Source: a virus
Direction: 5' to 3' (one strand)
Virus record (IMG/VR): IMGVR_UViG_3300035179_000073
Location: 1-21,688 of that record
Length of the DNA stretch: 21,688 bases
Shown here: positions 4,518-21,559 of the stretch, in pieces
How the letters are laid out: each line of letters opens with the position of its first letter
Numbering within the stretch: the first letter of the stretch is position 1
The notes under the pieces: generated by a model
What the model was told of the DNA's origin: nothing
The model's input: the letters and a program-made list of their open reading frames with translations, nothing else
Database searches by the model: none
Position numbers and translations under genes: made by a program

Positions 4518-5411
4518 ATGGCTATGATTCGTGATGCTTTTACATGGGTTGACACGGGCGCGATAGCGTATCCCGCTCTGCACAAGCACATTATAGAATT
4601 GACTATGCCCGCTCTGGTCGTAAAACGGTTATTGCCCGAGTTTCCGCTGGTTGCAGGTCGAACTGCAACATTTGTGAAGGAACAGGGCTCACGCAGTATC
4701 GGAATTAGTGAAATCAGTGAGGCAGCCGAAATTCCGATGGATTTTACGCCTTTAACAACGGTAACCGTCACGCCCTACAAGAAAGGGCTGCGAGAAAGGA
4801 TTCCGCGTGAGGCAATCGAAGACTTGTATATTCCAGTGATTGAACAGCAACTCCGGCGTCTGGCGAGACGTATGGCCTACCAGATCGACAAGGATTGCAT
4901 GACAGTGATTGATCTTGCAGCTGGTAGTAGCAGTGCTGGCACGGGCAAGAGTCTTGGAGCGACAGGTACAGAGTTTACCATAACTGGTGGCATTGGTACG
5001 AAGGATCTGCTTTGGGCTGACGCAAAAATTGCTAGTTACAATTTCATCGCCGATTCTCTGCTTTGCAATCCTGTTAATGCCCGCGATCTGAAATATTTAC
5101 CACAATTTTCATTATATGCGCAATATGGCGAGCCAGTGGTTCAAAGCGGCGCCATAGGCACAGTGTACGGATTACACTTCTATGTTAGCAACGTTGTGCC
5201 ACCAGGTACTGCTTACGTGCTTAGTACAGGGCAAAATCTAAGCGCATCCTATGCTCCTTTAGGCTTTTTCGTCATAAAGCGACCTCTGCTTACTGATATT
5301 GACATTAAAAAAGAGTTCGACGCGATCGACATTGTCCTGACAACAAGGTTCTCGCCGGTCATTACCTGCGGAGAGGCAATTTCGAAAATTACGGGTTTGG
5401 CGACAACTTAG
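4518..5411 (+). CDS. Major capsid protein, HK97 fold
   Basis: A 297-residue protein, about the size of mature HK97-fold capsid subunits. Features of the fold are an N-terminal arm, an extended segment (GRTATFVKEQGSRSIGISEISEAAEIPMDF) like the E-loop, a long spine-like helix (PREAIEDLYIPVIEQQLRRLARRMAYQIDKDC), and a C-terminal P/A-domain region ending in RFSPVITCGEAISKI. The segment DSLLCNPVNARDLKYLPQFSLYAQYGEPVVQSGAIGTVYGLHFYVSNVVPPGTAYVLS is a classic A-domain pattern (a residue lookup of the form NP...L........G......G.i.GipVyvs). An AGGTGAT ribosome site lies 5 nt before the ATG. Since the scaffold is supplied by the upstream gene, no long delta domain is expected, and none is seen. Confidence 0.92.
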   Translation: MAMIRDAFTWVDTGAIAYPALHKHIIELTMPALVVKRLLPEFPLVAGRTATFVKEQGSRSIGISEISEAAEIPMDFTPLTTVTVTPYKKGLRERIPREAIEDLYIPVIEQQLRRLARRMAYQIDKDCMTVIDLAAGSSSAGTGKSLGATGTEFTITGGIGTKDLLWADAKIASYNFIADSLLCNPVNARDLKYLPQFSLYAQYGEPVVQSGAIGTVYGLHFYVSNVVPPGTAYVLSTGQNLSASYAPLGFFVIKRPLLTDIDIKKEFDAIDIVLTTRFSPVITCGEAISKITGLATT

Positions 5412-5864: not shown

Positions 5865-6329
5865 ATGACAGTACAATATGTTACAATTAGTGATATTCAG
5901 TCTCATCTTAACGCCAGTTTTGATGCTTCAGGCTTAAGTTACACCGTGTTTGGTTTGCCCGTAGCCCAGGCATCTTTCCAAGCTCATGTTGATTATGCAA
6001 ACTTATACGCCAACAGTATTGTGGGCCAGGATTTACTTGTGACTGATCCACGGTATAATTGGGCGAAGATGGCTGCCATAAACCTAGCCTGTCTTCGTAT
6101 TCTCGTGGCTGCTAGCGGCGGGATGCTTCTAGGCGCCTTTGACTACCGTTTAGGCGATCTTTTCATTACCAAGGCTACGATCGGCAGAGTAGCCTTTCAG
6201 AATGCAGCTCAGGGCTTTAAGGATGATCTTGTTAGAATGCTAATGAATTTTGCAACTCCCGTTATTGCTGCTGAGGCTTCAGCCAAAGATGAAGTCCCGA
6301 CATATAGAGGCGGTTTAATCAACCCATAA
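5865..6329 (+). CDS. Head-tail adaptor (connector) protein, putative
   Basis: A 154-residue mostly helical protein. The layout (a short N-terminal segment DIQSHLNASF, helices such as ASFQAHVDYANLYANSIVGQDL, NWAKMAAINLACLRILVA, and a long C-terminal helix GFKDDLVRMLMNFATPVIA) is that of the head-completion adaptors that bind under the portal (HK97 gp6/SPP1 gp15 type). Its place right after the capsid genes and before the head-closure-like protein is where that gene sits in tailed viruses. An AGAGGT site precedes ATG 5865. No catalytic motifs are seen. The call rests on architecture and position, not on a diagnostic residue. Confidence 0.55.
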   Translation: MTVQYVTISDIQSHLNASFDASGLSYTVFGLPVAQASFQAHVDYANLYANSIVGQDLLVTDPRYNWAKMAAINLACLRILVAASGGMLLGAFDYRLGDLFITKATIGRVAFQNAAQGFKDDLVRMLMNFATPVIAAEASAKDEVPTYRGGLINP

Positions 6330-6342
6330 GTGGAAGACGAAA

Positions 6343-6474
6343 ATGAGTAAAGTCTTGGGTAAAGGTAACTATATCGTTGCAAAAGTGAATGGTGTAAAGC
6401 AAGTTTTAACAAGCGCTGAGATGCAGCAGCTTATCAACAATGGCTACGATGTTGAAGTAGTCACGCCAACCTAA
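6343..6474 (+). CDS. 43-residue hypothetical
   Basis: A small ORF starting at ATG 6343, 13 bp after the adaptor gene. The protein reads MSKVLGKGNYIVAKVNG and continues with VKQVLTSAEMQQLINNGYDVEVVTPT. It looks like a miniature fold: two short strands with a turn, then a helix (SAEMQQLINNGY) and a final strand. A translated beta-beta-alpha-beta order, lysine-rich start and lack of rare codons support it being real. The function is unknown. Confidence 0.5.
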   Translation: MSKVLGKGNYIVAKVNGVKQVLTSAEMQQLINNGYDVEVVTPT

Positions 6475-6477
6475 AGA

Positions 6478-6503
6478 ATCGTCTCGTGGGATTTGAACCC
6501 ATG
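6478..6503 (-). other. tRNA T-arm-like fragment
   Basis: Read on the minus strand, TGGGTTCAAATCCCA (6501-6487) has the stem and TTCAAAT loop of a tRNA T-arm, followed by GAGACGA as an acceptor-like strand. No matching 5' acceptor strand (TCGTCTC) lies at the right distance, and the outermost T-stem pair is A-C, so it is not a whole tRNA. Position 72 would be A, which is unusual. It might be the remnant of a tRNA 3' end used as an attachment core, or chance. Confidence 0.3.
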
Positions 6504-6529
6504 AACCTGGCTTTTTGAGGGCGGGAGAT

Positions 6530-6548
6530 TTTACCAATGATTGGTAAA
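6530..6548. repeat. Perfect 19-bp palindrome over a start codon
   Basis: TTTACCAATGATTGGTAAA is a perfect 9-bp inverted repeat around one central base (G6539), and it contains the ATG (6537-6539) of the next small gene. A one-base centre cannot form a simple RNA hairpin loop, so a dimeric DNA-binding protein site is more likely than an RNA structure. Confidence 0.6.
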
Positions 6549-6656
6549 CTGAAGCGTCTTAGTAAGCTTGTCTGCGAAAAATGTTCTGTAGCCGATTATT
6601 CTGTTTGCGCTAATTGCGAGATTAAAAAGTTGATAGATGAGCTGATGGAAAAGTGA
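6537..6656 (+). CDS. 39-residue zinc-ribbon micropeptide
   Basis: ATG 6537 opens a 39-codon frame that ends in a TGA overlapping the GTG start of the next gene (GTGA). The product has four cysteines as C13-x2-C16 and C24-x2-C27 (VCEKCSV...VCANCEI), a classic zinc-ribbon/knuckle spacing, between basic N-terminal residues (KLKRLSK) and an acidic/basic C-terminal helix (IKKLIDELMEK). A GGGAG at 6523-6527 is a plausible ribosome site. It could bind nucleic acid or regulate its own start through the palindrome it sits on; that is inference. Translational coupling to the long gene downstream is likely. Confidence 0.6.
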   Translation: MIGKLKRLSKLVCEKCSVADYSVCANCEIKKLIDELMEK

Positions 6657-8272
6657 ATGTTCCACAAAGCTATTACGATTTCATAATGCATTACGCACCG
6701 TATTTTTACGTTATCCCAACATTGATGACAGCGGACTCGCTGGCTGGCCAGAAAAATGTGACAGTTGCGGATGGCACAAAATTTCAAGCGGGCTTTCCGG
6801 TGCAGATCTACGATAACTCCAATAGCGAATGGAACGTTGTCGCCAGTGTCAATGGCAACGTTGTAACGATGCAGAATAACCTTGTGAATACTTATCATGT
6901 GGCAAATGGCGGAACAGTTGAAGGTCCAGATCCTGCTTATGGGCAAGGCGTGTTTCCAGCCGCTTTTGCGATTGACTTCCTATATCAAGCCTACAGTGCG
7001 CCTCAATTCGCTGCGAACCAAGCTGCCATTCTCGCGGAGATCCAGAGCCTAGCCAACTTCATTCTAACGCAGCAGTGCACGAACGCTTCAAAGAAGGCTT
7101 ATGGCGGGTTTGCAAGTGCAGTCGGCAGCACACAATACTATAGCGTCGACGCAGCAAGATGTATCCCAAGCCTTCTCAGAGCTTACGCATTAACGAAGAC
7201 AGCAAGTTATCTTTCAGCAGCAATTCTTGCAGGCTTGACGTTTCTGTATAATATGCAGCATCTTCCTGCGCAACTCGGCGTTCATGACAAGTATTACGGT
7301 GGCTTCGCAAGGTATGTCGACATTAATGATAACTGGAGTCGGCAAATGGATGTTGAGCCCATTTACGGGTTTATCGGCTTGCAAATGCTTGCACAAACTT
7401 ACGACGTCGGGAACGCGTTGACCTACAATGCTATAATGAGTGATGCTATTGGCTTCTTGCGATCTGGATTTGAGCAGCTTTACTTGTGGTTTGATCCGAA
7501 GCCGAATGGTGACGGAAAATGGCATCGTGTCGGTCTTGGCGAAACTCAGGTTTACGATGATCCAGTCAGCTTCGCATTGTTAGGGCTTTATATTTACGAA
7601 GGCTGGAGCACATCCTGCCAAAGAGTGTACAATTTCATCGAGACGATCCGGGCTTCAGCCCAGTACCCAGCCTACAACCCTGCTGTCTGCTGGCCAGGAT
7701 ACCTTGACGTCGTAACTCGTTTTCCAGCATGCGCATATTACGATGCAGTCACAAGCGGAATATTGGCCAAGATACGAGCAGCCCATGACAAGCCAAGCCT
7801 CGCCTACAGCATGCAAATAATTAACATGTATCAAATGCAGTGGATGTATTGGGGACCACAGTTCACTGATTATTCGCCGATAACGCCACAGAAGGCTATG
7901 ACGAACGTAACCTGGCTCGCGCAGCTGTTCCTTGCTTACCAAGACCCTTCAACAGATATAACGCACATTCTAAGCGTAAATGGCGAAAGCTTACTTCTCT
8001 ACCCTGTGCAGCAAGCAGCTGACCAAGTGACGTGGGGATCGCCGCTTAATCTATTGGGCTTGGTGACTTTGGGCGCAGTGGGCGAGATTGTACTTGAGCC
8101 TGGCTACATCACTGAAGCTCACATAACTGTTTTCAGTTTCTTGCCTGTACGTGTTCATGATAAGATCAGGCGATCGGGAGTAGACTACGAAGTTATCACG
8201 GTAAGTGAGGAAGACCTCAATGGCGACCCTATTTTTTATAAAAGCGTCTGTAGGAAGCTGATTAGCCAATGA
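6653..8272 (+). CDS. Six-hairpin (alpha/alpha toroid) domain fused to head-closure-like C-terminus
   Basis: A 539-residue protein that I read as three parts. Residues about 30-92 are beta-rich (QKNVTVADGTKFQAGFPVQI, NVVASVNGNVVTMQ). Residues about 100-430 show a repeated helix-pair pattern with aromatic turns (YGGFASAVG, SVDAARCIPSLLRAYALTKTASYLSAA, KYYGGFARYVDINDNWSR, DPVSFALLGLYIYEG), like six-hairpin glycosidases and related toroids. Residues about 435-539 are beta-rich and end LPVRVHDKIRRSGVDYEVITV ... DPIFYKSVCRKLI, the pattern of head-closure proteins (VRxGDxIxxxGxxYEVxxV). Its position between adaptor and tail terminator is exactly that of the head-closure gene. No proven catalytic acid can be named. 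GTG 6653 overlaps the preceding stop. Confidence 0.55.
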   Translation: MNVPQSYYDFIMHYAPYFYVIPTLMTADSLAGQKNVTVADGTKFQAGFPVQIYDNSNSEWNVVASVNGNVVTMQNNLVNTYHVANGGTVEGPDPAYGQGVFPAAFAIDFLYQAYSAPQFAANQAAILAEIQSLANFILTQQCTNASKKAYGGFASAVGSTQYYSVDAARCIPSLLRAYALTKTASYLSAAILAGLTFLYNMQHLPAQLGVHDKYYGGFARYVDINDNWSRQMDVEPIYGFIGLQMLAQTYDVGNALTYNAIMSDAIGFLRSGFEQLYLWFDPKPNGDGKWHRVGLGETQVYDDPVSFALLGLYIYEGWSTSCQRVYNFIETIRASAQYPAYNPAVCWPGYLDVVTRFPACAYYDAVTSGILAKIRAAHDKPSLAYSMQIINMYQMQWMYWGPQFTDYSPITPQKAMTNVTWLAQLFLAYQDPSTDITHILSVNGESLLLYPVQQAADQVTWGSPLNLLGLVTLGAVGEIVLEPGYITEAHITVFSFLPVRVHDKIRRSGVDYEVITVSEEDLNGDPIFYKSVCRKLISQ

Positions 8273-9255
8273 GCGCGTATGAAGACCCTGTAACAACAGT
8301 AATCAGGCTTCTCAGCAAAAAAATTCAAGTGATTAAGAATGATAACTCGATCGCAGTCCTCTATGTCAGCAAAGAATGGTACGATCGAGAGCTTTTCAAG
8401 AATTATGATGCGCAGATAAGCGTGGGTTTAGCTCAAAGTCAGGACCAGATGCTTGAGATAAGCGGGAGAATACGCAGGCGAATAGGAAGGCTGCGGCTTA
8501 ACATATGGGCCACGGATAGGCCGGCAACGTCTGACCCAGGCAGAACAATACGGCAGAAAATAGTCGAGGAAGTCAACCGTGTTGTTCACCAAAACATGAA
8601 GACTCCAAACCAAGCGTTTTACGATTTTTCTGGGTTAGGCTATCCTTCAGGAGATCCGCATAAAGCGTTTTCAGGAGCTGCAGCAACCGAGCTTGTACCA
8701 AGCGATCCTGGTTGGGCTGAGCTTTCAAATTTGGATTATCAGAAGATTTGGCACCCTGATAGCATAGATTACAGCAAAAGCACATCGGTGAACCTTCAGT
8801 ATGCGATGATGCTTTTCCGTTTCAAACTCGATATGGACGCGTCAAAAGTTCAGCAGATCGTCTTAACTTTCCTTGGCTACGGAATTGCTCCTGCGGGGAA
8901 TGGCAGCACGATTAAGGTTTGGAATGCTGTCTCTGGCGCTTGGCAAAACGCCGCGACAGGATCAGGAAGCAGCAATGAATATGTAACTATAACGTTGACT
9001 TCAAACGTTACGAATTACATCGACAGTAACGGTTATGTTTGGCTTCTCGCGAGAACAACAAACCCGAGTAACGGAACAACCGCAGCTGTGATAAACTGCG
9101 ATTATGTGAGCTGCACAGTCTCGGTTAATGGCATCACATACCTAGATATTGAGAGTTTCCGTGATATTGACAAGGTTGATGTTAAACCTTTCATCTTCAG
9201 GACGGAGTTTATCCTGAAATCATGGTCCTTTGAGGACATAGGAGGAATATTCTAA
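8269..9255 (+). CDS. Tail terminator-like protein with inserted beta-sandwich
   Basis: A 328-residue protein. Residues 1-130 (DPVTTVIRLLSKKIQVIKND, then VLYVSKEWY, then a GRLRLNIWATDRPATSDPGRTIRQKIVEEVNRVVHQN segment) have the strand-helix order of tail-terminator/neck proteins that cap the tail tube and join it to the head. The matching last strand and C-terminus, FIFRTEFILKSWSFEDIGGIF, come only at the end. The roughly 160 residues between (about 132-292) read as a separate beta-sandwich of the CBM/jelly-roll kind (MMLFRFKLDMDASKVQQIVLTFLGYG, TIKVWNAVSGAWQNA, VTITLTSNVTNYI). ATG 8269 overlaps the previous stop (ATGA). The host core plus inserted surface domain is my interpretation. Confidence 0.5.
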   Translation: MSAYEDPVTTVIRLLSKKIQVIKNDNSIAVLYVSKEWYDRELFKNYDAQISVGLAQSQDQMLEISGRIRRRIGRLRLNIWATDRPATSDPGRTIRQKIVEEVNRVVHQNMKTPNQAFYDFSGLGYPSGDPHKAFSGAAATELVPSDPGWAELSNLDYQKIWHPDSIDYSKSTSVNLQYAMMLFRFKLDMDASKVQQIVLTFLGYGIAPAGNGSTIKVWNAVSGAWQNAATGSGSSNEYVTITLTSNVTNYIDSNGYVWLLARTTNPSNGTTAAVINCDYVSCTVSVNGITYLDIESFRDIDKVDVKPFIFRTEFILKSWSFEDIGGIF

Positions 9256-9275: not shown

Positions 9276-10151
9276 ATGAGTGTTGAAACATATGGCGCAC
9301 ATGAGTGCCGCGTCTATTTCGTGCAAGAATCAACGTATGGACAGACACCATCGAATCCTGTGATGCTGGGTATGAATGCTGAAGACGTAGAGCCGAAGAT
9401 AGCCCCAAGCCTTATTGAAGTCATGGGTGTGGGCAGCAGAGACCTTCAAAACATTGTTGCTGGCATGAGAAAGGTTGAGTTGAAGATTCCGCACGCATTG
9501 AGTCCTCTTGCTCCCATCGGTTTCATTCAGCACGTGCAGACATTGAGCAGCCTGAGCGTTCTGGTGGCCTACTATAAGGGCTTATTTGCGAGTCCAACAA
9601 ACGTCATTGCCTTTATGCATCTTGGCTGCAAAATCGACAAAGTAAGCGTCTCATGCAAAGTTGATGATATAGTTAAGGCAGATGTTGAGTTAATCGGTCG
9701 AGATGTTTCAAGGTCAACATCGCTACCAACTGGTGCGACCTTCGGAGACTATTCAGGCGGAATCCCGTTCTTTGAAACTAAGGTGCAGAAAGGCGTTGCT
9801 GGCGGCGGAACTTATGCTGACTTAGTTGATGTCACGGATTGGAAGTTTGACATACAGAACAACTTTAAACGTGTCGTTACGATTCAGAGCGGCGGAACAG
9901 GGCTTTTGCTGAAGTATCTGCGTGAATGCAACCGGACACTAAGCGGAGAGCTTACGCTAGAGTTTGAGAATGATTGGGCACTTGCTGATCTCTTGGCTGA
10001 CAGCCAATTTAGCCTTAACTTCAACTTGAGTGGTGGAAAGCAAGCTGTGTTCACGTACTGTAAATGGCAAGAGTTCAATCCCACAGCAAAAATTAAGGAT
10101 CTCGCAAGCGTTAAGCTGAAGTTTCTCGCTCAAACCGTAGCCATAAGTTAG
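9276..10151 (+). CDS. Tail tube protein (major tail protein)
   Basis: A 291-residue protein with the sequence flow of siphovirus tube proteins: N-terminal ECRVYFVQESTYGQTPSNPVMLGM, then a strand-rich body (KIDKVSVSCKVDDIVKADVELIGRDV) matching the 'sVsidndvveak.el.G' pattern of the tube core. It continues with the DWKFDIQNNFKRVVTI loop, and closing strands TLSGELTLEFEND and AVFTYCKWQEFNP. It stacks as rings to form the conduit below the neck. An AAAGGTGA ribosome site is 8-15 nt before ATG 9276. The position before the chaperone pair supports the call. Confidence 0.75.
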   Translation: MSVETYGAHECRVYFVQESTYGQTPSNPVMLGMNAEDVEPKIAPSLIEVMGVGSRDLQNIVAGMRKVELKIPHALSPLAPIGFIQHVQTLSSLSVLVAYYKGLFASPTNVIAFMHLGCKIDKVSVSCKVDDIVKADVELIGRDVSRSTSLPTGATFGDYSGGIPFFETKVQKGVAGGGTYADLVDVTDWKFDIQNNFKRVVTIQSGGTGLLLKYLRECNRTLSGELTLEFENDWALADLLADSQFSLNFNLSGGKQAVFTYCKWQEFNPTAKIKDLASVKLKFLAQTVAIS

Positions 10152-10689: not shown

Positions 10690-11064
10690 ATGAGCATTCA
10701 GTTTCGTGTTGAGCTTAGCGGGTTTGAAGATTTTGCTGCGAAAATGCGTACACTAGATGAAGCTATGCAGGACTGTGTCCAAGATGCTTTGAACCAGACA
10801 GGTCAAGCGGTTGTGCGTCGTGCTCAGGAGTTGGCGCCGGTGCGGACTGGTCGCTTGATGGCGGGGATTTACGCTCAGATCATTTACAAGTGGGTCGTGA
10901 AAGTCGGGTGCATGGTGCCTTACGCTTTGTTTCAGGAGTTCGGCACAAGATACATTAGTCCACGTTATTTCTTAACGCGGGCTTTAGCGGAGAATGCGAG
11001 TAACTTCATGTTTATTGTGTCTACAGCGTTGGAACGTGCTGCAGAGGAGGCGAGTGCAGAATGA
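10690..11064 (+). CDS. HK97 gp10-like tail completion protein
   Basis: A 124-residue protein with the hallmark segments of the HK97-gp10 family: QAVVRRAQELAPVRTGRLMAGI (about residues 38-59), then strands around KWVVKVGCMVPYALFQEFGTRYISPRYFLTRAL (about 67-99). The pattern aPvrTG.L...I ... VpYA.f.EfGt....p..fl..a. is very characteristic. Family members act at the head-tail junction. The gene begins 3 bp after the chaperone and its end overlaps the tape-measure gene. Its place after the chaperones is unusual, since such genes normally lie between the head-closure and tube genes. Confidence 0.85.
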   Translation: MSIQFRVELSGFEDFAAKMRTLDEAMQDCVQDALNQTGQAVVRRAQELAPVRTGRLMAGIYAQIIYKWVVKVGCMVPYALFQEFGTRYISPRYFLTRALAENASNFMFIVSTALERAAEEASAE

Positions 11065-12659
11065 GTACAATGGGCGAGATAGCGGTTACGATTCGAGTGG
11101 TAAATGAGGCTACGCCCGAGTTTGAAGCTATCACCAGTGATGCGGCACGTATGGCTTCAGAGGTTGGCGCTCAGGCCGTAACTATTCGTACAGAAAATTT
11201 GGCAAGCCCAGAGATTAACAGGGTTGCTGAAGACGCTGCAAGAGTTAAGGCAGAGGTTGAAGGTTCGCCGATAACGATTGCCTTTGCGCCCATTGAAGTT
11301 CCGTCTATTCCTGCGATTGAAGTTCCTCCAGTTGAGACAAGTTTTGCACCCATTGAACCGCCTGTAATTCCGCCCCTAGATAGCCCTACGGTAACCGTAA
11401 ACTTTGCGCCAATTGACGTTCCGCCTCTGCCACCTATTGATACTACTGATATTCAAGATAGTTTACATGCTGTTGAAGCAGCTGCTATTGCGGCCTCTTC
11501 AACTATCTCTAGTTTACCCTTTGTCGTCACTGCTCAAAACTTGGCCTCTCCAGAAATCGACAAAATCGCAGAGGATGTTGCTACGGTGAAGGCTCAGGTT
11601 GAAGGTGCACCTATAACTATGACTTTCGCTCCTGTAGAGATTCCAGCAATTCCCATAATTGAAGTTCCGTCTATTCAGACAAGTTTTGCGCCTGTTGAAG
11701 TGCCTACGATTCCGCCGATAGAAGCTCCAACGGTAACCGTAAACTTCGCACCTATTGATGTTCCCGTTTTGCCATCGCTTGATACTTCACCTATTGAAGA
11801 CAGCTTGAACCGGGTGACTGCTGCCGCAATGAGTATGTCTTCGACGGTTTCAGCACAGTTAATAACGATTCAAGCGCAAGACTTGGCGTCACCTGAAATT
11901 AGTAAGGTCGCTGATACTGCTGCAAGCGTTAAGGCAAGTATCGAAGCCGCTCCGATAACGATTACTTTTGCGCCGATTGAAGTCCCACCCTTGCCACCGC
12001 TCGACACTACGCCTATCCAAGCAAGCCTTAACGAAGTCGGAGTTGCTGCAACAGGGATGGGTGCGGATGTTGAAGCTGCGTCGACGAGTTTTGATGATAT
12101 GTCTGCGCATGCTGAGGCGACTATGGTAAGCTTGCGCACGGTTGCTGGTGGCATAAGAACTACTGCTATGATGGGCACGGAGTTAACAACGCTTGCCGCA
12201 GATTTTGGGATTGTTGACAAGGAGACAAGCAAGTACATACGCACCATAATGCTCGTTATAATGATTGTCTCAACAGCAGCACGCATGTATAACTTTCTCA
12301 CTGTTATGACAACTGGACATACTGCTGCTCTAGCCGTTGAAACTACCACGGAAACAGGGGCTGCTGTAGCCGAGACTTCTCATTCAGTCGCTCATGGCAT
12401 TTATGCTGCTGCTTGCAACATTGCAACGATGGCTGAGAACGCCCTTAACATTTCTCATGCGACTTTTCTCGCCCTAACTGGAGTAGGAATCGCGGTTATT
12501 ATCGCGGCTGCCGCTGCCGTCTCGATTTTTGCAAGTCAAATGAACGCTGCCACTGCAAGCGTAAAAGGGTACAATGCGGCTGCTGCTGAGACGCCGACAG
12601 TCACACGTGGGATCACCCGAGCGGGTGAACAAGCTATGTATCGTAGAGGTGTTGAGTAA
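11061..12659 (+). CDS. Tape measure protein, short and proline-repeat-rich
   Basis: A 532-residue protein placed where the tape measure belongs, after the chaperones and before the tail hub. The N-terminal 46 residues (IAVTIRVVNEATPEFEAITSDAARM) resemble tape-measure starts. Residues 47-325 consist of repeats: LASPEI recurs at 47, 161 and 275, an exact 114-residue period, each unit carrying a helical stretch followed by Pro-rich FAP(I/V)(E/D)VP elements at 20-residue spacing. Residues about 345-390 are helical; two hydrophobic segments follow (about 393-412 and 468-491). The C-terminus is Ala-rich and then basic. It measures tail length and probably enters the host cell. The ATG overlaps the previous gene by four bases. 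Confidence 0.7.
   Translation: MSTMGEIAVTIRVVNEATPEFEAITSDAARMASEVGAQAVTIRTENLASPEINRVAEDAARVKAEVEGSPITIAFAPIEVPSIPAIEVPPVETSFAPIEPPVIPPLDSPTVTVNFAPIDVPPLPPIDTTDIQDSLHAVEAAAIAASSTISSLPFVVTAQNLASPEIDKIAEDVATVKAQVEGAPITMTFAPVEIPAIPIIEVPSIQTSFAPVEVPTIPPIEAPTVTVNFAPIDVPVLPSLDTSPIEDSLNRVTAAAMSMSSTVSAQLITIQAQDLASPEISKVADTAASVKASIEAAPITITFAPIEVPPLPPLDTTPIQASLNEVGVAATGMGADVEAASTSFDDMSAHAEATMVSLRTVAGGIRTTAMMGTELTTLAADFGIVDKETSKYIRTIMLVIMIVSTAARMYNFLTVMTTGHTAALAVETTTETGAAVAETSHSVAHGIYAAACNIATMAENALNISHATFLALTGVGIAVIIAAAAAVSIFASQMNAATASVKGYNAAAAETPTVTRGITRAGEQAMYRRGVE
11199..12035 (+). repeat. Coding tandem repeats in the tape measure (342-bp period)
   Basis: Two full 114-codon units start at 11199 and 11541, and a third starts at 11883 but lacks about 40 internal residues. 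Inside each full unit three FAP elements recur every 20 codons (residues 75, 95, 115 and 189, 209, 229); the third unit keeps one (residue 303). The missing 40 residues equal two FAP elements, which suggests gain or loss by recombination between them. Confidence 0.8.
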
Positions 12660-16626: not shown

Positions 16627-17354
16627 CAAGGATAACACCGCTTCTTACATCGAGGAAAGTTTTAACTTTCACTTATCCAAACGTTCAGGAAACACAAATT
16701 ACCCCTGAAACTCTTCCCACTTCTGAACCAACTGACCCTCAGATAAGTTATACAGTGGGGCAGTCAGATTTAGTTCAATTAAGCTTCAACGTTTTTCAAA
16801 GAATAGAGGTTGCTATTCTTAATGCAAGCGGTCAATTCATAACTGCTGGAACGCTTAATTATCGAATGGTGAAAAATGGAAGTTCAGTTAAGACTGGCTC
16901 TTTCGCTGTTTCCGCAAATTATTATTACAGGTTAGGTTGCTATTTTTATAATGTTGCAGTCGGTGACGTTTTAGGTATTAAACTTTGGTCTTCCGTAGCG
17001 GATAGCAACTGGGATATGAAAACTTTCTGGATGGACGTCACTCGAATAACCCCGCTTAACAAGCCTCGATGTCTATATAATGTGGAAGTGGCAGCAGCTG
17101 TCCAACGTTTCTCAGGGGCGGGTGGTGGAACTCTTAATTATTATCTTCATGATAATTTTTATTACGCCATATCAACCGCTTTTACTATTCCATTGTGGTA
17201 TCCTGCAGCAACTTATGGAATGTTTCGAGTCTCTCGAGGAGATAACATATACCCAAATAGTATAGAATCTGGAACGGGGGCAACACGCCCTGACCGAAAA
17301 GGTCTGAACTATGTTCCTTCACAGATAATCTTTCGAGGCTTAAGAATTGACTGA
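16623..17354 (+). CDS. Distal tail hypothetical, beta-rich
   Basis: A 243-residue protein translated from ATG 16623, overlapping the preceding stop. A Thr/Pro-rich leader (TQITPETLPTSEPTDPQ) leads into strands such as QSDLVQLSFNVFQRIEVAILNASGQF and TLNYRMVKNGSSVKTGSFAVSANYYYRLGCYFYNV. It is rich in aromatics and Asn. There is no membrane segment or signal peptide. The look is of a receptor-facing beta protein, but I do not recognise the family. Its last codons overlap the start of the repeat protein. Confidence 0.55.
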   Translation: MTRITPLLTSRKVLTFTYPNVQETQITPETLPTSEPTDPQISYTVGQSDLVQLSFNVFQRIEVAILNASGQFITAGTLNYRMVKNGSSVKTGSFAVSANYYYRLGCYFYNVAVGDVLGIKLWSSVADSNWDMKTFWMDVTRITPLNKPRCLYNVEVAAAVQRFSGAGGGTLNYYLHDNFYYAISTAFTIPLWYPAATYGMFRVSRGDNIYPNSIESGTGATRPDRKGLNYVPSQIIFRGLRID

Positions 17355-18204
17355 CTTGACTGAATACGGCGACGTGATGCTTGACGGCGTAGACGAATGG
17401 GGCTTCCGCAAGATAGACGGCTTGCTTGAAGATGGAACAAAAATAATAATTATCGGAGTCGGCGTTATTGACAAAAGCTTTTCTGAATCTGGTGCAGGTA
17501 GCGAAGTATTCGGCATACCGTTTAAAGCGTTGCCTTTCAGCGATGCTGGTCAAGGTGTAGATGCGTTTAACACATCATTCAGAACTATGGGATTTTCAGA
17601 CACTGGCTCTGGCTTAGATTCGTTTATTGTTTTATTGTCTAAAGCGTTTGCTGATGTGGGATTCGGCTCAGATGTATTCACGAAAGAACTTATAGGCTTT
17701 ATTGAAAAAGCTTTTGCTGATTCGGGCTTAGGTGCCGACGCATTCTTAATTCCATTTAAAGCAATGATGTTTTCTGATGTGGGTAGCGGAGCAGATATTT
17801 TCTCTCTTTTACGTGAGTTAGCGTTTTCTGATCTTGGCTTTGGTTCAGACGTCTTTGCCATTTTACTTAAAGTATTAGGTTTCAATGATGTTGGAGGCGG
17901 AGCGGATGTTTTTGCATTATTGCGTGAATTGGCATTCTCAGACTTAGGAGGTGGCAGTGATGCGTTTACCAACGAAATTTTCGGTTGGATTTTAAAGGCT
18001 TTCTCCGATGCAGGCTTAGGTTCTGACGTGTTTAACACTCCATTCCGAGCCATGAAGTTTCAAGACTCTGGGCTGGGAGCCGACGTTTGGAGAGGAGCCA
18101 ATTTGATTGAGGCTCCGTTGGTAATTATTACTGTCGACGGAAAAATAATTTTAAGAATTTCAAGAGCTACAAAAAAGGAGCCTGATTACATATTTCTTGG
18201 TTGA
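17347..18204 (+). CDS. Repeat protein with eleven DxGxGxDxF units
   Basis: A 285-residue acidic protein from TTG 17347, overlapping the end of the previous gene. Residues 43-248 are eleven imperfect units of about 19 residues with the core (F)(S/A)D-x-G-x-G-(S/A)-D-x-F, for example FSDVGSGADIF and FADVGFGSDVF. The next hydrophobic stretch of each unit (such as LLRELA or IPFKAM) may pack between turns. The Asp/Gly spacing is like that of calcium-binding beta-roll repeats but is not the RTX consensus. The N-terminus (DVMLDGVDEWGFRKIDG) and the C-terminus (LVIITVDGKIILRISR) are beta-rich caps. A distal fibre or spike protein is the likeliest role, from position. Confidence 0.6.
   Translation: MTDLTEYGDVMLDGVDEWGFRKIDGLLEDGTKIIIIGVGVIDKSFSESGAGSEVFGIPFKALPFSDAGQGVDAFNTSFRTMGFSDTGSGLDSFIVLLSKAFADVGFGSDVFTKELIGFIEKAFADSGLGADAFLIPFKAMMFSDVGSGADIFSLLRELAFSDLGFGSDVFAILLKVLGFNDVGGGADVFALLRELAFSDLGGGSDAFTNEIFGWILKAFSDAGLGSDVFNTPFRAMKFQDSGLGADVWRGANLIEAPLVIITVDGKIILRISRATKKEPDYIFLG
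17473..18090 (+). repeat. Coding tandem repeat array (11 units of about 57 bp)
   Basis: The repeat region of the gene above. Units vary from 17 to 23 codons and have diverged in bases more than in protein, so selection keeps the D-x-G-x-G-x-D-x-F core. Two units (near residues 64-82 and 226-248) keep the N-terminal neighbours KA/RAM, and two others share the lead ELAFSDL. Confidence 0.75.
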
Positions 18205-20071: not shown

Positions 20072-21559
20072 ATGGAGATTCCAGCGTTGAGAAGGCGCCG
20101 AGAGTACTTCCGAATCCAGAAATTTAGGCGTGTTTATGATAGGGTTTCTGGCAAGTTCACGTTTAACATAGCCTATGAGACTGCTGCTAAATTGACGCCT
20201 AGGAGTGTTGCGGTTGCTGAGGCATTCGGTTTGGGTTTGGATCAGCAGCGTAAGTTTGTTATTTTGGATAATGTTGAGTTGAAGATAAGCCCAAACGACA
20301 TTGTCTTGATCACCGGTGACAGTGGCAGCGGCAAAAGCGTGTTACTACGAGCATTGCTGCAGGATCTGGGCGGTGAAGCTGTCGACATGGCTAGGGTCCG
20401 TGTTACTCGTAGTAAGCCTTTGATCGAAACAGTGGGCAAGACTGTTGAGGAAGGCTTGGATGTACTCAGTAGGGTAGGCCTCAATGATGCGTTTCTTTTC
20501 CTACGTACATACGATCAGCTTAGTGATGGCCAGAAATATCGTTATCGCATTGCCAAACTTGTTGAAAGTGGCAAGCAATGGTGGGTTATGGATGAGTTTA
20601 TTGCTACGCTTGATCGTGATACGGCTAAAATTGTGGCGTTTAATGTGCAGAAGTTTGCGAGAAGTCTAGGGAAGGCTGTTGTTGTGGCTACTACGCACAT
20701 GGATTTGTTTGAGGATCTCAAGCCTAGCGTGCATGTGCATAAGCGCTTCGGCAAAGAAATAACTGTCAACTACTATCCGAATGAAGCTGCTAAAGAGTGC
20801 AGCCTTGTCAAGGAAATGGAAATTAGGCCTGGTATTCGTGATGATTGGCACCGTCTGGAAGAGTTTCACTATCGTAGCCCTAACCTGGGCGCTGTCCGCG
20901 AGATCTACGGCCTGTGGCGTGGCTACGACCTCTGCGGTGTGATCGTTTATAATTATCCGCCGATGACTTGCATGGGTCGTAATCTTGTTTTGCCGAAGAT
21001 GACTCCTAAAGAGTTGAATAAGAAGCTGAGCATAATCGGGCGTGTCGTGGTACATCCGAAATATCGTAGCATAAGCCTAGGAGCCAAACTTGTTAAGGAA
21101 ACGTTGCCCTTGGCTGGAACGCCTTATGTGGAAATGGTTGCGGTCATGGCGAAGTATAATCCGTTTGCTGAGAAGGCTGGGATGAAGCGTGTGGTCTTTC
21201 AGGTTCCAAGCAAAGAAGCGTTAAAGATTTGCGACGTACTTGAGCAGCTGGGGTTTAACACTAAATTGTTAGGTAGCGAATCCTATGTACGTCGCAAACT
21301 TGAAAAGTTAAGCCCAAAACAAATGGCAACGCTGAAAGAAGCCTTCATAAGAAATAGTCATCCACGCCTGCACAAGGAAATTGCAGTTAATCGACACAGG
21401 GCCTTCGGCACAAAAGCACATTACGTTGAAGGCATCAAAAATGCAGATTTATCTAGGATGGCGAAGCTCATCAAGGTTGTTGGGATTCTTCTTCAGGTGA
21501 AGGCTTACCTTTTCTGGGAGAACTTGGCTTTTCAACATATGCAAACTCATAGACCGTAA
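20072..21559 (+). CDS. ABC-type ATPase fused to GNAT acetyltransferase (COG2401-like)
   Basis: A 495-residue two-domain protein. The ATPase has Walker A GDSGSGKS (residues 82-89), a signature LSDGQ (150-154), Walker B WWVMDEF (D174, E175), and the switch His in TTHM (H209). It lacks membrane segments, so it is not a transporter. A GNAT domain follows (about 248-420): motif A in IGRVVVHPKYRSISLGAKLV (322-341), with RSISLG as the acetyl-CoA loop, and motif B in NPFAEKAGMKRV. The fusion is that of COG2401 proteins, common in archaea and some viruses, whose role is unknown. The last 30 codons overlap the opposite-strand gene. The protein could be host or viral. Confidence 0.85.
   Translation: MEIPALRRRREYFRIQKFRRVYDRVSGKFTFNIAYETAAKLTPRSVAVAEAFGLGLDQQRKFVILDNVELKISPNDIVLITGDSGSGKSVLLRALLQDLGGEAVDMARVRVTRSKPLIETVGKTVEEGLDVLSRVGLNDAFLFLRTYDQLSDGQKYRYRIAKLVESGKQWWVMDEFIATLDRDTAKIVAFNVQKFARSLGKAVVVATTHMDLFEDLKPSVHVHKRFGKEITVNYYPNEAAKECSLVKEMEIRPGIRDDWHRLEEFHYRSPNLGAVREIYGLWRGYDLCGVIVYNYPPMTCMGRNLVLPKMTPKELNKKLSIIGRVVVHPKYRSISLGAKLVKETLPLAGTPYVEMVAVMAKYNPFAEKAGMKRVVFQVPSKEALKICDVLEQLGFNTKLLGSESYVRRKLEKLSPKQMATLKEAFIRNSHPRLHKEIAVNRHRAFGTKAHYVEGIKNADLSRMAKLIKVVGILLQVKAYLFWENLAFQHMQTHRP

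Follow-up and report, generated by a model that had tools for sequence, protein, structure and literature searches.

An (alpha/alpha)6 toroid of carbohydrate-active type fused to the probable head-closure protein of tailed viruses of Bathyarchaeia: a predicted glycan-binding neck collar

Introduction

What would a domain built like a sugar enzyme be doing in the neck of a tailed virus? The question is raised by a gene at positions 6653-8272 (plus strand, GTG start) of a linear virus record from IMG/VR, a fragment of 21.7 kb whose full 21,688 bases are called the window below. The gene encodes a protein of 539 residues, in which a preliminary description had noted YGGF and DPVSF turns followed by a C-terminal pattern, and which it had interpreted as a toroid at about residues 95-430 joined to a head-closure domain. 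The ORF exists as described, and the motifs named there can all be located: KAYGGF (residues 148-153), YYGGF (214-218), DDPVSF (302-307) and LPVRVHDKIRRSGVDYEVITV close to the C-terminus. The two GGF motifs are near-invariant in a family whose members are 44-91% identical, so these motifs are no chance pattern.

The answer developed here is that the ORF probably encodes the head-closure protein of a tailed virus of Bathyarchaeia, with an (alpha/alpha)6 domain of carbohydrate-active type fused at its N-terminal side, and that this domain is predicted to form a neck collar binding, and probably trimming, host glycans. The fold, the fusion, its conservation, the strong purifying selection acting on it and its place between probable adaptor and terminator genes are established by computation.

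Domain architecture of the toroid-closure protein

From the 539-residue sequence alone, AlphaFold2 returned an unusable model (pLDDT 34), and an alignment of relatives was needed for a confident one. With 101 relatives, the model reached a pLDDT of 95.4 (about 97 in the toroid part) and a pTM of 0.93. In this model, residues 1-22 and 93-430 together form a closed ring of 12 helices, or six hairpins, as the preliminary description had anticipated. In model numbering, which is protein numbering minus one, helices 1-6 span residues 4-13, 99-114, 116-138, 163-180, 183-206 and 234-249, and helices 7-12 span residues 251-273, 301-315, 319-329, 365-377, 379-391 and 415-427. Most of the ring is encoded by positions 6929-7942 (plus strand; residues 93-430), a segment of six-hairpin glycosidase/epimerase-like type. 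The first helix (residues 1-22, positions 6653-6718, plus strand) closes the toroid as partner of the last inner helix (415-427), a pairing of first with last that follows from the helix order, and it is kept even in the one relative in which the toroid is fused to a tail protein (L034, discussed below).

Between this helix and the remainder of the ring lies an inserted, mobile beta domain (residues 23-92, positions 6719-6928, plus strand) that weakly resembles the K1-lyase Rider domain (Pfam PF24149). The C-terminal residues 431-539 (positions 7943-8269, plus strand) form a separate beta domain, with beta strands filling residues 444-534 of the model, to which a head-closure (stopper) role is assigned from Foldseek matches and a stand-alone homologue in the provirus L246. 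The model contains toroid and closure only, and no coiled coil. The layout first proposed is thus borne out for the toroid and the closure domain; the inserted beta domain and a jelly-roll-like insertion in the next gene had been overlooked.

Fold and conservation of the toroid

Since the Foldseek output gave no residue ranges, matches of the 539-residue protein were assigned to toroid or closure by their length. The best toroid match in the PDB was CPF_2247 (E 2e-6, TMt 0.64), which we take to be a GH126 enzyme and whose PDB entry is titled novel alpha-amylase; further toroid matches were glucose and cellobiose 2-epimerases (AGE), GH76, PssZ and GH8. The SSV19 tail structure 7xdi_F was also among the toroid matches. 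Searched directly against PDB and Pfam, the window sequence gave nothing significant, and no carbohydrate-enzyme family of Pfam matched the window protein at E<1. Among 30 diverse toroid relatives, 28 matched Pfam C5-epim_C (PF06662). Against the curated cut-off of 23.3 of this profile, L034 scores 25.4, proviruses in the genomes G099 and G102 also lie above it, and the window member lies below it. A profile search of PDB sequences ranked a D-glucuronyl C5-epimerase first (E 0.04). Genome searches with GH76 and C5-epimerase profiles gave no decision on the nearest sugar-enzyme family: the GH76 profile did not reach the viral toroids in the genomes searched, and of three C5-epimerase matches above the cut-off, two proved to be the viral toroids in G099 and G102. 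The viral toroid shares its fold with six-hairpin sugar enzymes (GH126, GH76, GH8, AGE and the C-terminal domain of C5-epimerase), but at about 10-14% identity and as part of a predicted virion neck protein. The C5-epimerase domain gives weak but repeated profile matches to the viral toroids, which have a conserved acidic cavity.

Conservation was assessed in 30 members with 42-73% identity to the window protein. Six acidic residues (D166, D302, D303, E316, D364 and D379), three arginines (R169, R292 and R375) and several aromatic residues (W290, Y341, Y350, Y363 and W400) of the toroid are invariant in all of them. The invariant acids, whose presence in the cavity had been proposed as a check on the toroid, lie at the cavity face or adjoin it. 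The share of invariant positions is highest, at 31%, where the inner helices begin with their N-terminal turns; it is 24% over the remainder of these helices and 17% in the loops leading into them, whereas outer helices have 13% and the closure domain has 6%. The dN/dS ratio is about 0.1 in every domain, with 0.07-0.11 for the toroid and 0.06-0.09 for the closure. Judged from sequence, the invariant residues of these three kinds and the low dN/dS mark the toroid as a functional module. A catalytic site would give such a pattern, and so would a pocket that binds a specific ligand.

The closure domain and the neck gene cassette

In the PDB, the C-terminal domain matches the neck protein 8hdr_A of cyanophage Pam3 (TMt 0.76, rmsd 3.5, over about 110 residues) and the phiCD508 neck protein 9gb5_G. 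Its matches among viral models carry the names head-to-tail stopper, closure knob and head-tail joining protein. Profile matches are weaker, with E 0.22 against PHROG 161 (head closure Hc1); PHROG 939, annotated 'head protein', reaches up to E 5e-5 in closures of relatives and 8e-8 in L246. The fold and the gene order, with weak sequence support, thus favour the head-closure (stopper) function that the preliminary description had put forward. A separate closure gene, which would speak against this assignment, was looked for in the proviruses L046 and L040, and no second closure ORF was found in either. In fold and in the adaptor-closure-terminator order, which is seen in the window, L046 and L246 with adaptor and terminator labels that are partly positional, the domain resembles SPP1 gp16, HK97 gp7, the Pam3 and phiCD508 neck proteins and PHROG 161 Hc1. 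However, closures of the SPP1 gp16/HK97 gp7 type stand alone, with a length of about 100-130 aa, whereas in the present chain the domain follows a toroid of about 340 aa.

The surrounding genes of the window, of which those listed here with coordinates are on the plus strand, are those of a tailed virus. Upstream are a portal protein (487-1893; Pfam PF06074, E 5.8e-10; PHROG 9232), a decoration-like protein, a major capsid protein (4518-5411; PF25209, E 4.4e-10) and, by position, a probable head-tail adaptor of gp6/gp15-like type (5865-6329), whose positional counterparts match adaptor/connector PHROGs weakly (E 0.22 in L046 and 5e-5 in L034). Downstream follow a probable tail terminator (8269-9255), a tail tube protein of the Phage_tube_2 family (9276-10151; PF18906, E 2.5e-17), an HK97-gp10-like neck/tail-completion protein (10690-11064; PHROG 5, E 4.8e-20), and the tape measure and tail hub genes. 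The HK97-gp10/SPP1 gp16.1-like gene stands after the tail tube gene here, and within the neck cassette in SPP1.

Both end regions of the terminator protein align with the short terminator-like protein that L246 encodes (E 6.6e-26). Alignment with L246 and L205, whose terminators lack it, delimits a jelly-roll-like insertion at about residues 122-298 (positions 8632-9162, plus strand), which has weak similarity to GH114_assoc (PF14741). Of 132 toroid viruses whose terminator gene is complete, 126 carry this insertion; strict co-occurrence of toroid and insertion is ruled out by the six others, which have the toroid only.

Several other features of the window and its relatives may be recorded. 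The window tape measure (11061-12659) is 532 aa long and expanded by proline-rich repeats (FAPIEVP..PP); in relatives the median length is 238 aa. A 285-aa ORF at 17347-18204 with about nine SDxGxGxDxF repeats is possibly a tail fibre. A conserved large gene (window 20072-21559, L034 13886-15319, L281 7046-8341) encodes an ABC-type ATPase region and possibly an acetyltransferase-like C-terminal part, and in L034 it adjoins the terminase large subunit gene. A tRNA 3'-end-like stretch at about 6488-6501 (reverse complement TGGGTTCAAATCCC), between the adaptor and toroid genes, is possibly an attachment site; it stands at the same place in L003, L004, L006, L008 and L010, and had no match in 251 host genomes. 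A search upstream of the toroid-closure ORF found no tRNA gene or Rfam RNA. In proviruses, the portal gene can lie on the strand opposite to the remaining head and tail genes (L046 2912-4117 and L246 1-808, both minus strand), and L246 carries nucleotide-sugar epimerase-like and glycosyltransferase-like genes (6081-8238) between its capsid and adaptor genes.

Distribution and hosts

Among the 50,697 phage records of INPHARED, no relative of the toroid-closure ORF was found. IMG/VR yielded 34 relatives by single-sequence search and 151 with the toroid alignment. The same fusion had been expected in related viral genomes, and it recurs in 163 ORFs with repeated boundaries (toroid at about 92-430, closure at 431-539). 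As locus counts include overlapping fetches of identical contigs, distinct-sequence counts are given where possible, and the 163 ORFs correspond to 139 distinct viral sequences. Toroid-only ORFs number five, four of them cut, truncated or split (L035, L047, L048 and L081) and the fifth being the hub fusion L034. Two further candidates did not hold up: a 794-aa fusion in L211 was rejected because a frameshift there joins the closure and terminator genes, and a toroid-hub chimera in the genome G122 (L212) looks like a deletion remnant.

Proviruses carrying the ORF were found in Bathyarchaeota genomes, including one in a 2.15-Mb contig (L046) and one in JAAKEZ010000002 (L040), which is the contig of BATPV1. 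The main text of the BATPV1 paper mentions no neck, head closure or connector protein (PMC11705971). The toroid profile matches 42 of 257 Bathyarchaeia genomes, a few of these by weak cellular or fragmentary matches only, and a larger set of 398 phylum genomes gave no further genome with a strong toroid match. The family appears to consist of tailed viruses of Bathyarchaeia with short tails.

Relatives as natural controls

The provirus L246 carries a cassette of adaptor, stand-alone closure (125 aa), terminator-like protein (153 aa) and tube. Against the window family, the L246 closure gives a match of E 1e-16. The L246 terminator-like protein aligns with the start of the window terminator and picks up again beyond the inserted domain, which it lacks. 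Since L246 has the same cassette without toroid or terminator insertion, both are additions. By this comparison of genes, the toroid is an added module, separate from the DNA gate itself.

More distant Bathyarchaeia viruses carry other genes at the same place. In five of them, the neck cassette includes a beta-helix-type gene encoding about 350-510 aa (L286 8682-10196, L289 4236-5762, L283 7150-8217 and L284 7575-8843, all on the minus strand, and L287 2590-4104), which immediately precedes the stand-alone closure gene in four of the five. Pfam confirmed the beta helix in all three tested (L286, L287 and L289). Of 135 distinct relatives of the window protein, 69 have the window-type inserted beta domain and 66 lack it. 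The domain recurs in these beta-helix neck proteins (E 6e-17 to 8e-25), four of the five viruses carrying it. In L282 (7189-8541), a 450-aa ORF spans the whole gap between adaptor and tube as the only gene there, and likewise in its relatives L290-L293. The N-terminal domain of this ORF, which has no database match, is possibly TIM-barrel glycosidase-like. A search of PDB and Pfam with a profile of the ORF found nothing, and hhalign did not confirm a terminator at its end. Judged by its gene content, the cassette looks like a place where glycan-active modules dock and can be swapped for one another.

In one virus, the toroid lies elsewhere. On a single contig (L034, the same contig as L248; 7923-11159), it is fused to a protein that is a hub by its position, with a second toroid-like repeat region, seen by inspection, at the C-terminus. 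As the module is at the neck in most viruses and at the tail in this one, a host-contact role fits better than a role in DNA gating.

Two side observations may be added. The same inserted beta domain is found in a tail tube protein and in large tail proteins of related viruses (L109 8270-9352, L063 5693-8989, L246 13361-15436), at least one of the large tail proteins, that of L246, being a hub. In L247 (8327-10411, G058:C1), a topoisomerase VI subunit B-like gene has about 100 C-terminal residues that match the viral closure profile (E 1.5e-13); the gene possibly reads through into a provirus remnant or has captured one.

Comparison with known systems

The preliminary description knew of no common precedent for a glycan-active domain at the neck. 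This stands only in part. Modules that bind carbohydrate or resemble carbohydrate enzymes are present at the head-tail junction of lactococcal 936 phages and TP901-1, in the neck passage structure (PMC6669499). The 936 structure is, however, a separate fibre-forming protein with a BppU-like N-terminal ring and a trimeric coiled coil, unfused to the stopper, and it is non-essential in TP901-1. In the haloarchaeal siphovirus HFTV1, a turret head protein has glycan-binding and deacetylase/hydrolase-like domains away from the tail tip (PMC12494034). These turrets stand on capsid hexamers and have galactose-binding and deacetylase-like folds; the toroid-closure protein differs from them in fold and gene position. 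The adaptor of roseophage R4C bears an accessory domain on a neck ring protein, which its authors read as structural (PMC10276861); the fusion to a neck ring is alike, but the domain is Ig-like and sits in the adaptor.

Another archaeal parallel is the spindle-shaped virus SSV19, whose virions, with the mannanase-like domain of VP4, hydrolyse the host N-glycan (PMC12042106). VP4 is likewise an archaeal virion protein with a sugar-enzyme-like domain, but it forms a tailspike of 137 kDa, sits at the tail and belongs to an unrelated virus, whereas the toroid here sits on a closure fold; the L034 hub fusion is nearer to the VP4 arrangement than the neck fusions are. Glycan modules off the tail tip and an accessory domain on a neck ring are therefore already known. 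What appears new is the (alpha/alpha)6 toroid within the head-closure polypeptide, for which no description was found in the literature searched.

Proposed mechanism and alternative explanations

The closure domain would join the stopper ring, which has six copies in R4C (PMC10276861), so that the neck would carry a collar of toroids, their cavities lined by the conserved acidic, arginine and aromatic residues. The jelly-roll-like domains of the terminator would sit below this collar, in the next ring. Toroids and jelly-roll-like domains may then bind, and probably trim, surface-layer glycans of the host as the virion adsorbs or its tail penetrates. Tail length follows the tape measure at about 1.5 angstrom per residue. 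With tape measures of 157-617 aa in these viruses (median 238), most tails would be some 25-60 nm long and the neck would lie near the surface layer; with tails this short, a neck-borne enzyme could reach the host surface during adsorption or penetration.

The most serious competitor, which we nevertheless consider rather unlikely, is that the toroid is lectin-like and has lost catalysis, serving as a neck decoration for reversible adsorption, like the collar modules of the 936 phages. Weakly binding modules on neck collars are indeed known (PMC6669499), enzyme-derived virion proteins may lose their activity (PMC12042106), and the adjoining jelly-roll-like and Rider-like domains resemble accessory or binding domains. 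Yet the six invariant acids and three arginines resemble a retained active site and not a loose binding surface, and SSV19 virions, with their mannanase-like VP4, do hydrolyse a host glycan (PMC12042106). A purely structural toroid, stiffening or spacing the stack of portal, closure and terminator with no sugar contact, is very improbable: constraint on the toroid equals that on the closure, and the Ig-like domain of the R4C adaptor provides a structural parallel (PMC10276861), but L246 has the same neck gene order without a toroid, conservation is strongest at the cavity face and not in the outer helices, and one virus has the toroid at the tail hub position.

It could also be asked whether the C-terminal domain is a closure at all, or whether the ORF is a spike or fibre bound near the neck in a virus whose head is closed by another gene product. 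The beta-helix gene placed right before the closure gene in distant relatives indicates that the neck position can hold a spike. Against this stand the matches of the C-terminal domain to solved neck proteins and annotated stoppers, its homology to the separate ORF that L246 carries between its adaptor and terminator genes, and the lack of a second closure in L046 or L040, so that we give this explanation very little credence. The head-closure protein with a toroid that binds and probably trims host glycans thus remains the preferred reading.

Implications for Bathyarchaeia viruses

A broader and more tentative proposal, which we regard as possible but do not favour, is that the neck of Bathyarchaeia viruses is a modular surface-glycan organ, with exchangeable catalytic or binding modules mounted on the connector rings of short-tailed siphoviruses. 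The closure toroid, the jelly-roll-like domain of the terminator, the beta-helix protein beside the closure and the domain of the 450-aa ORF would be such modules, taking on part of the tasks that usually fall to the tail tip. Cutting of glycans at the neck might even be coupled to the opening of the DNA gate, which is part of the same polypeptide.

Almost nothing is known of how viruses recognize Bathyarchaeia, which are among the most abundant archaea of sediments. A widespread and strongly conserved putative enzyme fused to the DNA-gate protein offers a concrete candidate for glycan recognition. If the proposed function is true, the connector is more than the inert gasket it is usually taken for: it can bear an enzyme, and a single polypeptide would combine the processing of glycans with the retention of DNA.
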